Positions 57,030 to 63,766 of a DNA stretch of 64,000 bases are shown here, piece by piece; position 1 is the stretch's first letter; the number at the start of each line of letters is the position of its first letter. The notes under the pieces are model-generated. The model did no database searches and had not been told where the DNA came from. It saw only the letters and a program-made list of their open reading frames with translations. This stretch comes from a bacterium (GTDB taxonomy: Bacteria; SZUA-79; Acidulodesulfobacterales; Acidulodesulfobacteraceae), in contig JAJYJI010000001.1 in the NCBI GenBank assembly GCA_021789605.1, positions 113,880-177,879 of the forward strand. Direction: 5' to 3'. The position numbers were made by a program, and so were the translations under genes.

Positions 57030-57419
57030 ATGAAAAAGGGTTTAACGGTTGTTTTTATCGCGGTTGTTATAGTTGCGGGTTATTTTGCTATTCGCGCAAT
57101 CACGTCTCCTGTCAGATTATCCGACGCACAGCTCGGTAAAAAACTCATAGAGTCCCACAAAAAGGGCATCGACTGTCTTGCTTGCCATACGATAAACGGC
57201 AAGGGGGGCGCCGTCGGCCCAAACCTTTCCAAAGAAGGCACGCTTAAACATACCGTTCATTGGCTTGAAGTCCAGATTGCCGAACCGTCGAAACATTATA
57301 AGCCTGCTTCCACGGTGAAAATCGGCGGAAAATCTTATATGGCTATTATGCCTGACCATAAGATGCTTTCAAAAAAGGAACTTTTAGAACTTGCATCGTA
57401 TCTAAATTCGTTAAAGTAA
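57030..57419 (+). CDS. Membrane-anchored monoheme class I c-type cytochrome
   Basis: N-terminal TM; DCLACHTINGKGGAVGPNLSKEG (CxxCH); distal YMAIMPDHKMLSKKELLELASYL Met ligand region. Confidence 0.9.
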   Translation: MKKGLTVVFIAVVIVAGYFAIRAITSPVRLSDAQLGKKLIESHKKGIDCLACHTINGKGGAVGPNLSKEGTLKHTVHWLEVQIAEPSKHYKPASTVKIGGKSYMAIMPDHKMLSKKELLELASYLNSLK

Positions 57420-57568: not shown

Positions 57569-58744
57569 TTGAAAATCATAAATTTTGACCATTTTGCGGC
57601 GACGAGAATGCGGCAGGAAGTAAAGGACGCTATGGAGCCGTTCTTCATTGCGGAATACGGCAATCCTCAAAGTATTCATACGCTCGGCGACGAACCGAGG
57701 GAAGCTCTCGGCAAAGCGAGGCTTCAGGCGGCGGAGCTTTTGAACGCTTCGAGCGGCGAAGTAATATTTACCGGCAGCGGTTCCGAATCCAACAATCTTG
57801 CCATAAAAGGAACGGCTTTTGCCAGAATGGATAAAGGAAAGCATATCGTAGTTTCCAAAATAGAGCATTTCAGCGTATTAAACGCCGTTAAGTCTTTGGC
57901 GAAACTCGGCTTCGAATTCAGCGAAGTTCCCGTAGACAAATACGGCTCGGTTGACCCCTCCGACGTTAAAAGCGCGCTAAAAAAAGATACCGTGCTTGTA
58001 AGCATTACGCAGGCCTCTAACGAAATAGGAACCATTCAAGACATTAAGGAGATTTCCAGAGTCGTTCACGAAAACTCCGCCGCTTATATGCATACCGACG
58101 CAAACACCTCCTGCGGTTTCATAGAAGCGGACGTTAAAGAACTCGGCGTCGATATGCTTTCCGCTTCTCCGCAAAGATTTTACGGCCCTAAGGGGGTAGG
58201 GCTGTTTTACCTTAAAAAGGGAACGCGCATAATGCCGTTAATCGACGGAGGCGTGCAGGAGTTCGGGAGAAGGGCGGGAACGGAAAACGTGCCGGCTATC
58301 GCTGGGGCGGGAACGGCATGCGAGCTTGCAAAAAAGGAGCTGAAGGACAGGACCGCCCATCTTTTGCGTATTCAAAAAACCATTATGGACGGGGTTCTTG
58401 GCGGCCTCGACGAGGTATATCTGAACGGACATCCCGAAAAACGGCTTCCAAACAACCTTAACTTTGTCGTAAAATACATCGAAGGCGAATCCATGCTTAT
58501 GTGGCTTAACAATAACGGCATTATGGTTGCAAGCGGTTCCGCTTGTACGTCTAAGATTTTAAAATCGTCCCACGTGCTAAGCGCAATAGGCGTCGACCCT
58601 GCGCTTGCGCAGGGCTCTTTGCTTATATCGTTAGGGGAAGACAACACTCTTGAAGACGCCCGGTATTTCGTCGGGGAACTGCCTCCCATAGTAAATAAGT
58701 TAAGGGCGATGTCGCCGCTGTACGAGGAAGCGGCAAAGAAATAA
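57569..58744 (+). CDS. NifS/IscS-family (class V aminotransferase fold) protein lacking the canonical PLP-binding lysine motif
   Basis: TGSGSESNNLAIKG; IEHFSVL; NEIGTIQDI; HTDANTSCG; active Cys loop VASGSACTSKILKSSHVL; SASPQRFYGPKGVG in place of SGHKIYGPKGVG; TTG start with CGGAGG RBS. Confidence 0.9.
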   Translation: MKIINFDHFAATRMRQEVKDAMEPFFIAEYGNPQSIHTLGDEPREALGKARLQAAELLNASSGEVIFTGSGSESNNLAIKGTAFARMDKGKHIVVSKIEHFSVLNAVKSLAKLGFEFSEVPVDKYGSVDPSDVKSALKKDTVLVSITQASNEIGTIQDIKEISRVVHENSAAYMHTDANTSCGFIEADVKELGVDMLSASPQRFYGPKGVGLFYLKKGTRIMPLIDGGVQEFGRRAGTENVPAIAGAGTACELAKKELKDRTAHLLRIQKTIMDGVLGGLDEVYLNGHPEKRLPNNLNFVVKYIEGESMLMWLNNNGIMVASGSACTSKILKSSHVLSAIGVDPALAQGSLLISLGEDNTLEDARYFVGELPPIVNKLRAMSPLYEEAAKK

Positions 58745-58787
58745 GAATTTGCCGTGATGCGGGGACGCAAAGCAAATCGGCGCAAAA

Positions 58788-58819
58788 TACTTGACTAATT
58801 TAGTAATGTATGGTTTAAT
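58788..58819 (+). promoter_or_regulatory. Putative IscR/Rrf2-type operator overlapping a TTGACT-N17-TTTAAT promoter, upstream of iscU (copy 2)
   Basis: tacttgactaatttagtaatgtatggtttaat; near-identical to 57453-57484. Confidence 0.75.
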
Positions 58820-58943
58820 TAAAATATGACGATGGATGAAGTTAATGTATGCGTAAAGGGGCATCATATGAGGCCGTCCGCCGCCGTCATTATCGTTATA
58901 TGATATGATAAATTTAAATAAAAAAATCTGGAGGAAAAAAATT

Positions 58944-59390
58944 ATGCCTGTATATTCCGAAAAAGTTATGGACCATTTTCAGCATCCGAGGAACGTAGGA
59001 GAGATAGAAAATGCCGACGGGGTAGGGGAACTCGGCAATCCTACCTGCGGCGACATAATGAAAATGTACATAAAGGTCAAAGACGATAAAATAGACGATA
59101 TAAAATTTAAAACTTTCGGGTGCGGCGCGGCTATAGCTACAAGTTCTATGGTGACTGAACTCGTCAAAGGAAAGACGCTTGAAGAGGCGGAAAAGATTTC
59201 CAACGCAACCGTAGCCGAGGCTTTAGACGGACTGCCTCCCGTCAAGATGCACTGTTCCAATCTTGCCGCGGACGCGCTTCATCTTGCAATACACGATTAC
59301 AAATCTCGCAAGGAAGGCAAAGGCCCGATAGGCAAGGTCGAAACTCCGGAGCACGACGAAGACGAGTCCGCGCTGCTGGAGCATACATAA
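58944..59390 (+). CDS. iscU: Fe-S cluster scaffold IscU/NifU N-terminal-type
   Basis: MPVYSEKVMDHFQHPRNVGEIENADGVGELGNPTCGDIMKMYIKV; FKTFGCGAAIATSSMVTELVKGKT; PPVKMHCSNLAADAL; GGAGG RBS before this ATG rather than the ORF-track start at 58905. Confidence 0.95.
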   Translation: MPVYSEKVMDHFQHPRNVGEIENADGVGELGNPTCGDIMKMYIKVKDDKIDDIKFKTFGCGAAIATSSMVTELVKGKTLEEAEKISNATVAEALDGLPPVKMHCSNLAADALHLAIHDYKSRKEGKGPIGKVETPEHDEDESALLEHT

Positions 59391-59482
59391 AACGCGCATT
59401 TTTAATGCGGCTTAAACCGCGTAAAAATAAAGCGGATAGGTTTTGCGCGAAATAATTTAATAAAGGAACGAAAGGGTCGAAC

Positions 59483-59707
59483 ATGAAATACGATTGCGAA
59501 CTTGACACTTTTGGACTGTCATGCCCCGTCCCAATAATGAAGGTCGCGGAGGAGTTTAAGGAAATGCCGGACGGTTCCGTCTTAAAAGTTACCGCCTCGG
59601 ACGAAGGCATAATAGAAGACTTGAAAAGCTACTGCAAAAAAACGGGACACGAGTTTCTGTCCTATGAAATAAGCCTGCCCGAATATATAGTTTACGTAAG
59701 AAAATAA
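59483..59707 (+). CDS. TusA-family sulfurtransferase (copy 2)
   Basis: LDTFGLSCPVPIMKVAEEFKEMPDGSVLKVTASDEG. Confidence 0.92.
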   Translation: MKYDCELDTFGLSCPVPIMKVAEEFKEMPDGSVLKVTASDEGIIEDLKSYCKKTGHEFLSYEISLPEYIVYVRK

Positions 59708-59719
59708 AAAAATAAATCC

Positions 59720-59747
59720 TTGACATAATTAAAATAGGGATTATAAT
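59720..59747 (+). promoter_or_regulatory. Consensus sigma70-type promoter TTGACA-N16-TATAAT (P1 of cytochrome-porin gene)
   Basis: -35 59720-59725, -10 59742-59747. Confidence 0.7.
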
Positions 59748-59821
59748 TAAAACATAAAAACATTGCGTCCGGCAGCTAAAATTATTTTAGTCCGGCACTG
59801 TAAAAAATTTTAATTTAAGTA

Positions 59822-59850
59822 TTGACAAAAAACAATTTTAGATATATAAA
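59822..59850 (+). promoter_or_regulatory. Consensus sigma70-type promoter TTGACA-N17-TATAAA (P2 of cytochrome-porin gene)
   Basis: -35 59822-59827, -10 59845-59850. Confidence 0.7.
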
Positions 59851-60063
59851 ATATAAGATGATATGAAATGTTCTTTTTTGCTGAAAAATTAATAAACCCG
59901 CGTATTGCCGTCAAAGGAAGCGGAAATAAAATTTTTTAAAAAAAATAATATAAAAATCTATAAGGAGGTGGAAGAAAAGAAGATTTAAAATTTGCAGTTA
60001 TATGTTCGTTAATCCTAATTTTTATTAATTTTTTTAACTTTAACTTTAAGAGAGAGGAAAGTT

Positions 60064-61452
60064 ATGAAAAAGAAATTATCAGTAACTATTGTTGCGTTGT
60101 TTTTTCTGGCGCTTTCATTTGCCATGATGCCCAGAAAATCAAGCGCGATTCCGGCATTTAGCCAAAAGTATCATTTTTCATGCGCAGTTTGCCACACCGT
60201 ATTCCCTAATCTAAATCCTTTCGGCAGAGCATTCTGGAGAAACGGATTCAGGCTTCCAGGCACGAACGGAACTCCCGCCGATGCGACGCAAATCGCCCAA
60301 GGCTTAAGCCTTCCGAACCCGTGGCCGATTCCCATAATGCTGGAGCCCATCATCAGCTATCAGCATACGACCAATGAAAATGTCAGCAACCAAACAGACC
60401 CGTTCGGCGCAGGAGTCGATGCGGTAAGCGCGGGCTCATTCAATTTATATACGCCCCTTGCCGAAACGATGTCTTTTTATGTTCACTTAGGAGTAGCGGC
60501 AGGCGGCGCCATGGGAGATAAGCAGATATTTGCCTCGATTAACGGCTTAGGCGGCGGATTAGGCCTTCCTTCGCATCTGTTCAATCTTAAACTCGGCCAG
60601 GTTACTACCGCAAGCCCATATTTTTATAGGCAGATGCCGTTTTATCTTCCCGACGGCCCGAACGGCAACGGTCAGGGTTTAAATATCGGATACGATACAG
60701 AAGGAGGATTATTAATACATTCCAGAAATGCGGGATTTGCCCTTTACGGAACGCCCGGCTATCATTTATGGTATAAAGTATCCGTTACGAACGACAGCAC
60801 GGAAGGCGCGGGCGTACACTCTGGCGGAGAAGGAACCGCATTATCCGCCACCGGCGATAACGCCATGGAATATTCCTACCAGTTAAAAGAATATGCCCCG
60901 TTGCCGATGGGCCAGCTTGAACTCGGTTATTACGGCGCAGCCGTAGCAGAACCCGTTACCGCCGCAGGAAATACATGGACCAACCGCGTATTGGTAAACG
61001 GCGCCGATATAGACCTTGCAAACGCGGTTTACGAACTTGGCCTGACCTATATGGTCCAGAGCGATTCAAATCCCTATGCCATGAGCGGCGCCAAGCTGCC
61101 CGCGGGAGTTACCGATACGTCTAACGCTTACAGCACGTTCGAGGTTTACGGCCGCTATACATTGCCGGTCATGAGCAACGGAATAATGCTTTCTGCGGAT
61201 TATGCGCAATATTCATGGGCGCATAAGGATTCTCAGCTGGCGTTCATAAACGGCGCCAATTCGACAGTCGATAACGTCGGTTTATACGGAGGCGCTCTGC
61301 TTCCCGGCACTTCCTACAACGGCGTAAAAGACTCTCTTGCGCTTGAGGCCGAAATAAATTTGGCTTATAATGCGCATCTTTATCTTGGATATACAATCAC
61401 CAACCAGAACGAAGACAATCTTTTAGGCACCGGTTTAGACTTTGCGTTTTAA
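60064..61452 (+). CDS. Cyc2-like outer-membrane fused monoheme cytochrome-porin
   Basis: Signal peptide then IPAFSQKYHFSCAVCHTVFPNLNPFGRAFWRNGFRLPG; ~400-aa amphipathic beta-rich remainder ending LLGTGLDFAF (terminal Phe). Confidence 0.75.
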   Translation: MKKKLSVTIVALFFLALSFAMMPRKSSAIPAFSQKYHFSCAVCHTVFPNLNPFGRAFWRNGFRLPGTNGTPADATQIAQGLSLPNPWPIPIMLEPIISYQHTTNENVSNQTDPFGAGVDAVSAGSFNLYTPLAETMSFYVHLGVAAGGAMGDKQIFASINGLGGGLGLPSHLFNLKLGQVTTASPYFYRQMPFYLPDGPNGNGQGLNIGYDTEGGLLIHSRNAGFALYGTPGYHLWYKVSVTNDSTEGAGVHSGGEGTALSATGDNAMEYSYQLKEYAPLPMGQLELGYYGAAVAEPVTAAGNTWTNRVLVNGADIDLANAVYELGLTYMVQSDSNPYAMSGAKLPAGVTDTSNAYSTFEVYGRYTLPVMSNGIMLSADYAQYSWAHKDSQLAFINGANSTVDNVGLYGGALLPGTSYNGVKDSLALEAEINLAYNAHLYLGYTITNQNEDNLLGTGLDFAF

Positions 61453-61482: not shown

Positions 61483-61512
61483 AAAGCGAGGGCGACGCCC
61501 TCGCTTTTTTTT
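61483..61512 (+). terminator. Rho-independent terminator AAAGCGAGGGC-GAC-GCCCTCGCTTTTTTTT
   Basis: 11-bp stem, 3-nt loop, T-run of 8, 31 nt after the cytochrome-porin stop. Confidence 0.95.
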
Positions 61513-61624: not shown

Positions 61625-63076
61625 ATGAATACTTTTAATCCGAGGCATATTTTAAGAAAAATTTTATCGGTGCCGATTCATATAAAAATAATCGGAATCT
61701 TATTTGCCGCGGTTATAGTTTTAGAATTGGCGACGATTGTTTCTTTGTATATAATTTTCAGCGGGCGGGAATATTCGCGCATAGTAAAAACCGGAAATGC
61801 GGCGGGTAAAATTATTGCATACAGGATAAAGGGCTATCTTAAAGAAGGCGATACGCTAAAACTTAAAAAGATGCTTCGTTATAACATTTCAATAAGTCCT
61901 ATATTGATGTATATCGTAGTCAGAACAAACGGCGGCAGGATAATCGCTTCCGCTTCTAAAAAAGGGGTATCCGAAGCGGCTCCGAAATACGGCTTTTTAC
62001 GGCTGCGCGGCGGCGGCAAGCCTTCCGGCGCATTTATTAAATCTCCATACGGGCATATAATAAATTTAAGCTTTCCGGTCATAGAAGGTAAAGGCGGCGG
62101 GCTTAATGCGGCTGGAACGAAAATAGGCACCGTCGCCATAGGACTTCTTTTCGATTCTTTTCATTATTTTTTTAAAATTACCGTTACTTTCATAATATTC
62201 GTATTGTTTCCGCTTATAATATTTACTGTAATATTTTTCAGGTGGATTTCGCTGTCGGTTCTTAAACCGCTGTCCGACCTTTCGACAGCCGCGTATTCGG
62301 CAAAAAACGGAGATTACGGCATAGTCGTGCCGACGCCGGATTTAGCCGACAAAAAACTTGCCGGACTGATAACCGGATTTAACGATATGCTGGCCGCTTT
62401 CAATAAAGCCGAATATAAGTGGGAAACCAAGGATTTGCGGAGGAAAGAATTTTTAGCGGAAATTATAGCCGCGCAGGAATCGGAAAGGAAAAAACTTTCG
62501 AGAGAACTGCACGACGAATTAGAACAATTTTTAATTTACATAAATATGAAGTTCGGAATATTGCAAAAGTTAGACAGCGCGGCGCTTAGAAACGAATGCA
62601 TCAAAGAAATGAGGCAGGGCATACTGGAGCAGTTGGATATTATAAAAAATATAACAAAAGAATTAAGGCCGGGCTTAGTTTACGAACTTGGGCTGTATAA
62701 GGCCTTAATGCAATATGCGGAAGAAATAAAATCCAACCATAATATACAGGTAGAAATATACGCGGCGGGAATGAAAGAATTCAAAGCAGGCGAGGATATA
62801 GAGATAGGCATATACAGAATTCTTTAGGAAGCCTTTTCAAATATAATAAGGCATAGCAAAGCATCTTCGGTAAAAATCGAAATAAATTTTGAAAATTGCG
62901 TATTTAAAGCTATAATCGTAGATAACGGAACAGGTTTTAAATATAATAAAAAATTCGGCGAGAATTACGGCATCAACGGCATGAAAGAAAGAGCCGAGAT
63001 ACTTGGGGGCACCTTGCATATAAAAACGAAGCATGGGTCCGGCGTTACGGTAATATTAAACATACCCGTAAAATAA
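61625..63076 (+). pseudogene. NarX-type sensor histidine kinase (HAMP, HisKA_3, HATPase_c) interrupted by an in-frame TAG at 62825-62827
   Basis: 61625-62827 encodes TM, HAMP and RKKLSRELHDELEQF; same frame continues after TAG as EAFSNIIRHSKASSVKIEINFENCVFKAIIVDNGTGFKYNKKFGENYGINGMKERAEILGGTLHIKTKHGSGVTVILNIPVK*. Confidence 0.92.
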
Positions 63077-63106
63077 AATTATAATTAAAAAGTAAAGGTT
63101 GCCGAT

Positions 63107-63766
63107 ATGAAAAAAATAACAGTCGTAATTGCGGACGACCATCCTATCGTAATTTCAGGCGTTAAATCCTTGCTGTCCATGCAAAGCGATATAGATATCG
63201 CAGGAGAAGCCGCCGGCTTGGACGCTATGCTTGAACTAGCAGGAGAACTCAAGCCGGACGTCCTGCTTCTCGATATATCTTTTAACGATAAAAGCAGTCT
63301 GGATTACATAGAAGAAATAAAAAACAAATCTCCGAAAACCAAAATATTAATGCTTACTATGCACGAAGAGTTACCCTTTTTGCGGGAGGCGTTAAGCAGG
63401 GGGGCGGCCGGATTTCTTACAAAGCGCTCCCTTTACGAAGACCTTGTATATGCAGTGAAATCGATTGTTAAAGGCGGAACTTATATCCATCCCCACATGG
63501 CGGATAAGCTTGCGTGCAATATTTGCGGCAGCGGCAATGCTCCGGACAAAAGCGCGGAAGAAATTTTATGGATGTCGTTAAGCAAACGCGAGCAGGAAGT
63601 ATTGGTAGGCGTAGCCAAAGGGCTTTCCAATAAGGAAATAGGCTTAAATCACGACCTCAGCGAAAAAACCGTCGCTACATACAGGCTGCGCGGCTTAGCC
63701 AAGATTAAAATCTCCAATAAAGCAAATCTTTTGGAACTTTGCCTTAAATTGGGACATATAAAATAG
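63107..63766 (+). CDS. NarL/FixJ-family response regulator (TAG stop)
   Basis: VVIADDHPIVISGVKSLL; DVLLLDISFND; LSKREQEVLVGVAKGLSNKEIGLNHDLSEKTVATYRLRGLAKI. Confidence 0.95.
   Translation: MKKITVVIADDHPIVISGVKSLLSMQSDIDIAGEAAGLDAMLELAGELKPDVLLLDISFNDKSSLDYIEEIKNKSPKTKILMLTMHEELPFLREALSRGAAGFLTKRSLYEDLVYAVKSIVKGGTYIHPHMADKLACNICGSGNAPDKSAEEILWMSLSKREQEVLVGVAKGLSNKEIGLNHDLSEKTVATYRLRGLAKIKISNKANLLELCLKLGHIK

Follow-up and report, generated by a model that had tools for sequence, protein, structure and literature searches.

A divergent Cyc2/Cyt572-like cytochrome-porin of the Candidatus Acidulodesulfobacterales and its possible direction of electron flow

The cyc2 gene serves as a genetic marker of iron oxidation, and Cyt572 is known for its unusual heme group, its outer-membrane location and its Fe(II) oxidase activity. 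The window analyzed here, a stretch of 64,000 nucleotides from the genome of an acid-mine bacterium of the acidophilic lineage Candidatus Acidulodesulfobacterales (SZUA-79), contains a gene of 462 codons (60064-61452) that a sequence-only reading had described as a Cyc2-like fusion of an outer-membrane cytochrome and a porin, possibly with a different substrate or direction of electron flow. The locus raises the question whether the encoded protein belongs with Cyc2 and whether electrons would enter or leave the cell through it. The Cyc2-defining motif AXPXFAR[Q/K][T/Y] lies upstream of CXXCH, and a PXL motif comes shortly after the latter (Keffer et al. 2021, PMC8406198). Tan et al. 2019 (PMC6776010) described cyt572-like genes in four out of four Ca. 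Acidulodesulfobacterales genomes, counted one of these genes with the 20 top transcripts and inferred iron oxidation; these genes very likely belong to the porin family described below.

The open reading frame starts with an ATG that is preceded by a ribosome-binding stretch (AGAGAGGA), and both the frame and the N-terminus quoted in the sequence-only reading were present (all features of the window described here lie on the forward strand). The protein begins with a hydrophobic leader and an SSA-IP cleavage-like site, read from the sequence, which agrees with the signal peptide proposed earlier and expected of Cyc2. The following segment is numbered A28-I-P-A-F-S-Q-K-Y36-H37-F-S-C40-A-V-C43-H44-T-V-F-P48-N-L50 and contains an altered Cyc2 signature, AIPAFSQKY (residues 28-36, 60145-60171), in which residue counts against the published motif place Gln34 where Cyc2 has Arg. 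The only CxxCH of the protein, near the N-terminus as in Cyc2, is CAVCH (residues 40-44, 60181-60195), a heme c attachment motif at which a heme would be covalently bound, and it is followed by the PxL motif typical of Cyc2 (PNL, residues 48-50, 60205-60213). The C-terminal Phe noted earlier is found in the final residues LDFAF. Neither the Pfam nor the NCBIfam models matched the 462-amino-acid protein, and a sequence search of the solved structures in the PDB gave no convincing match.

An AlphaFold model built with a 26-sequence alignment (A2) contained exactly 16 strands (residues 89-461, 60328-61446), preceded by short helices that surround the heme site, with a mean pLDDT of 69 (mostly 70-89 in the barrel and about 32-52 around the heme site). 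In a Foldseek search, the best matches were general porins, among them OmpC, OmpF, OmpU and PorB, with E-values of about 1e-11 and TM-scores of at most 0.65 when normalized by target length, which backs the predicted 16-stranded barrel that was expected for a Cyc2-like protein. The predicted helical heme segment together with the 16 strands corresponds to the Cyc2 architecture of Keffer et al. 2021 (PMC8406198), in which a porin of about 16 strands is fused to the cytochrome and the protein has at least 365 amino acids.

The gene was identified in 28 out of 30 genomes of the source family (the source genome included), mostly with 52-80% identity and in several genomes in multiple copies, indicating that the reading frame is not a product of chance; the two genomes that lack it are 86% and 59% complete. 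Among the relatives are Candidatus Acididesulfobacter diazotrophicus AP1 (L068) and the metagenome-assembled genome SZUA-79 (L075 and L085), which places the window in the Ca. Acidulodesulfobacterales lineage. Outside the family, a family profile that contained one outside sequence (G048) detected the N-terminal cytochrome domain in 52 out of 356 genomes, mostly within reading frames of 380-840 amino acids and with E-values that range from 1e-22 to 1e-7 once G048 and its relative G332 are set aside. Profile-profile comparisons with three separate groups of homologues, all of which carry the canonical motif, gave probabilities of 98.8-99.8% over 298-377 columns, showing that the alignment reaches into the barrel and that much of the barrel aligns besides the heme domain. 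A search of plasmids returned only distant, mostly N-terminal matches, chiefly from Burkholderiales. A rapidly built tree of 93 sequences, composed of the family and of unnamed homologues from the search, places all 35 family sequences on one side of a branch with an SH-aLRT support of 100 and a stem of 1.36 changes per column. Together, the homologues, the profile-profile comparisons and the predicted barrel support the earlier description as a monoheme cytochrome-porin fusion.

The long-branched family also shares a fixed residue change, consistent with the divergent clade suggested by the sequence-only reading. The Arg position of AXPXFAR[Q/K][T/Y] is occupied by Gln (30) or Glu (4) in all 34 members of the order that were counted, whereas 57 out of 58 homologues elsewhere carry a basic residue (Arg 52, Lys 3, His 2, Gln 1), a comparison whose homologues were retrieved mainly with family sequences as seeds and are, if anything, biased toward family-like motif residues. 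Furthermore, all 34 order members contain a His at position -3 from the first Cys, and the CxxCH itself shows no variation within the family or among the 58/58 counted homologues, where it is part of a longer motif common to many bacterial families. Arg→Gln/Glu is a single change within one clade and not a series of independent changes. The replacement of FARQTG by FSQKYH that had been noted earlier is real for Arg→Gln and Ala→Ser, the latter a minority variant, whereas K and Y fall within the allowed [Q/K][T/Y] variants. In the same way, the claimed Cyc2 signature holds for CxxCH, PxL and barrel length but not for the defining AXPXFAR[Q/K][T/Y], for which reason the protein is called Cyc2-like and not Cyc2. 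Keffer et al. (PMC8406198) dropped sequences without PXFAR[Q/K][T/Y], so the proteins of this order, which a screen with the published motif would miss, would be absent from their tree. Judged by sequence, the protein is best classified as a divergent Cyc2/Cyt572-like cytochrome-porin of the Ca. Acidulodesulfobacterales.

The porin gene is preceded by a sigma-70-type promoter sequence with a 12/12 consensus match (TTGACA-N16-TATAAT, 59720-59747) that begins 344 bp upstream of the gene and is retained with 11/12 or 12/12 matches in most relatives of the main type. An intrinsic terminator (61483-61507, an 11-bp stem with a T tract) is located 3′ of the gene. Promoter and terminator suggest a strongly expressed single-gene unit, which fits the high transcript level reported. 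The long leader (59712-60066) contains two promoter-like boxes and a GGAGGTG well upstream of the start codon and is conserved in relatives. An Rfam search around the gene and its leader gave nothing above the gathering thresholds, and the best sub-threshold matches correspond to the terminator hairpin.

A gene for a monoheme class I cytochrome c with an N-terminal hydrophobic segment (57030-57419, PF00034, E 6e-9) ends 2.64 kb upstream of the porin gene. The sequence-only reading had mentioned this neighbor, and the link is stronger than it suggested: in each of the 20 main-type loci whose upstream sequence is long enough, an orthologue (mostly 71-76% identical) precedes the porin gene on the same strand. 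The cytochrome gene directly adjoins the porin gene in 12 of these loci, with gaps of 163-344 bp, and is separated from it by iscS-NifU-tusA in the other eight. The conserved pairing makes the cytochrome the likely electron partner of the porin. In the window, the intervening genes encode a cysteine desulfurase, a NifU-like scaffold and TusA (57569-59707, assigned by Pfam); a functional link of these genes to the porin was not accepted because they are missing at that place in 12/20 relatives. Reading frames and a domain search identified a histidine kinase with an in-frame stop and a LuxR-type response regulator downstream (61625-63766), and a related pair adjoins a porin paralogue on contig C36 of the source genome. 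The kinase frame (61625-63077) is interrupted by a TAG at 62825-62827 and homology to the C36 kinase extends beyond it; the TAG, which would cut off the ATPase domain, may reflect a decayed gene or a sequence error.

The respiratory genes of the order provide the context for the direction of electron flow. The source genome (G000) contains dsrAB, cydAB and Rieske/cytochrome b genes; most members of the order carry dsrAB (in-frame TAGs were reported for some dsrA matches, and two dsrA loci that were inspected contain long open frames), and the order has a bc1 complex and a bd quinol oxidase. No cytochrome c oxidase and no CCP/MauG were found in the source genome, where the sole large COX1-type match is a NorB-type NO reductase (PF22085). 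Weak COX1 matches of about 140 amino acids occur in most family genomes; the one in the source genome is a small membrane protein of 139 amino acids, which its length rules out as an oxidase. A cbb3-type oxidase is present in 3/30 family genomes, the source genome not among them, and rusticyanin was found in none of the 30; these absences rest on draft genomes, in which they can mislead. A further membrane protein of 489 amino acids (L168 2569-4038, contig C34) with multiple helices and a C-terminal CxxCH is encoded in the Rieske/cytochrome b operon; it has no confident Pfam match and is possibly an unusual cytochrome subunit.

Based on these observations, the protein is best read as a conduit between iron and the periplasm that is built like Cyc2 and Cyt572 and most likely runs outward in the source genome, a reading that we hold at about even odds (a probability of roughly 0.5). 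A single heme c on the short N-terminal domain would plug the periplasmic end of the 16-stranded barrel, and dissolved iron in the acidic water would reach it via the pore. The heme would exchange electrons with the co-conserved periplasmic monoheme cytochrome (57030), which in turn would trade electrons with the bc1 complex. In the source genome, electrons would flow from quinol through bc1, cytochrome c and the porin heme to dissolved Fe(III). The Fe(III)/Fe(II) couple lies near 770 mV at pH 2 (PMC8406198), so this path would be downhill and electrons from Fe(II) would not pass downhill to a quinol oxidase. Gene content, the iron couple and the published proposals of Cyc2 as an Fe(III) reductase make the outward direction (Fe(III) reduction) somewhat likelier than Fe(II) oxidation in the source genome, and the altered direction raised by the sequence-only reading is a reasonable one given the gene content. 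The outward conduit draws on the barrel and heme segment, the homologues, the cytochrome in 20/20 loci, the promoter, the presence of bc1 and bd, the NorB-type NO reductase as the sole large COX1-type match, the rarity of cbb3 and the absence of MtrB/PioB and rusticyanin. On the other side, the 489-amino-acid protein with its heme motif could be an unknown electron sink, the heme region is modelled with low confidence, and Tan et al. read genes of this kind as evidence of Fe(II) oxidation. The extension to the whole order, in which Cyc2-derived porins with Arg→Gln/Glu would act as Fe(III) reductases and receive electrons from bc1 through a monoheme cytochrome dedicated to them, is rather unlikely.

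The most credible alternative, itself tentative and in line with the proposal of Tan et al. for the cyt572-like genes of the order, is that the porin is a usual inward Fe(II) oxidase that feeds cytochrome c and from there oxygen, NO or reverse electron transport. Cyc2, Cyc2-PV1 and Cyt572 are all Fe(II) oxidases (PMC8406198), three family genomes do contain a cbb3 oxidase, the order's abundance follows ferrous iron levels and a cyt572-like gene is a top-20 transcript in one genome (PMC6776010). This has to be set against a porin that is near-universal in the order and yet occurs in a source genome without a detected cytochrome c oxidase, CCP/MauG or rusticyanin, and against an iron couple that at acid pH is too positive for quinones to be reduced and the bd oxidase to be reached without energy input. 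A role apart from iron, in which Arg→Gln/Glu would mark a functional shift to the transfer of other electrons or solutes (e.g., from sulfur compounds) or to sensing or stress, would fit the fixed signature change on a long stem and the expanded paralogues with altered heme sites, one type of which adjoins cydAB. It is nevertheless improbable, as the remaining heme motif is conserved, the habitat is iron-rich (PMC6776010) and no sequence feature points to any specific other substrate. Finally, an ordinary porin with an accidental CxxCH and no heme would be compatible with the missing Pfam and NCBIfam matches and with a barrel that resembles plain porins, but it was rejected as very improbable because the CxxCH is invariant across the family and the 58 homologues and sits inside the longer motif of many bacterial families.

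The outward iron conduit would have relatives among known systems. Cyc2 of clusters 1-3 (PMC8406198) shares the signal peptide, the single CxxCH, the PxL and the fused predicted 16-stranded porin of more than 365 amino acids but differs in the motif Arg, for which the order has Gln/Glu along with the fixed His three residues before the first Cys and the long-branched clade; in addition, the porin locus has no rus-type operon. Cyt572 of Leptospirillum, compared by description only, is likewise an outer-membrane monoheme cytochrome of an acidophile. For Acidithiobacillus ferrooxidans, Cyc2 was proposed as a terminal Fe(III) reductase at the end of the same type of path, from quinol through bc1 and a periplasmic carrier to Cyc2 and Fe(III) (PMC8790237, PMC7735108), but this species has rusticyanin and an aa3 oxidase and both directions occur, whereas no rusticyanin was found in the order and few of its genomes have a cytochrome c oxidase. 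FeGenie lists Cyc2 cluster 3 as probable oxidation and possible reduction (PMC7005843). MtrCAB, PioAB and MtoAB also use a barrel to carry electrons across the outer membrane, but in these complexes the barrel is a protein of its own that works with a multiheme cytochrome, in contrast to the one heme motif and fused barrel found here, and MtrB/PioB (PF11854) was detected in 0/30 family genomes. Already known were the cyt572-like gene of the order (Tan et al.) and the proposed reverse use of Cyc2 in Acidithiobacillus; new are the motif departure and the clade, the promoter and the cytochrome in 20/20 loci, and the respiratory gene profile of the order. The text consulted from Tan et al. 2019 (PMC6776010) mentions no change in the motif and no paired cytochrome. 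A near-universal multi-copy family with a strong conserved promoter in an order with few cytochrome c oxidases offers a system to probe the direction of conduction. If the order-wide outward reading is true, single-heme porins would be conduits that run outward in some lineages, and cyc2-like genes alone would be no marker of iron oxidation.

Three further porin copies are located on contigs C36, C39 and C86 of the source genome. The C36 paralogue and a relative in L078 have lost the PxL (CHINGYGGGASLNPFG) and are flanked by a histidine kinase-response regulator pair upstream and a monoheme cytochrome downstream, and the C86 paralogue has also lost the PxL and contains a TAG within the motif region. 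In these paralogues (L034 1112-2509, L078 8001-9398 and L035 1955-3226), the loss of the PxL is combined with an altered spacing of the heme site (e.g., CAVCHINGYGGGASLNPFG). The C39 paralogue (L036 4624-6021), a single sequence, carries an additional CxxCH (CSGCH) directly ahead of predicted strand 6; alignment and predicted strands place this motif near the pore-entering loop of general porins, and the protein is possibly a two-heme cytochrome-porin. A long cyc2-like paralogue (a reading frame of about 560 amino acids, L043 5178-8695) adjoins a divergently oriented cydAB, and L044/L081 and L045/L080 contain long paralogues of a similar kind. Finally, cyc2-like copies are found within clusters of multiheme cytochromes with 3-7 CxxCH each (L079 2765-17216 and L076 2428-17166) that also encode predicted lipoprotein-like proteins, followed in L079 by Rieske and cytochrome b genes, and these clusters look like an extracellular electron transfer island.
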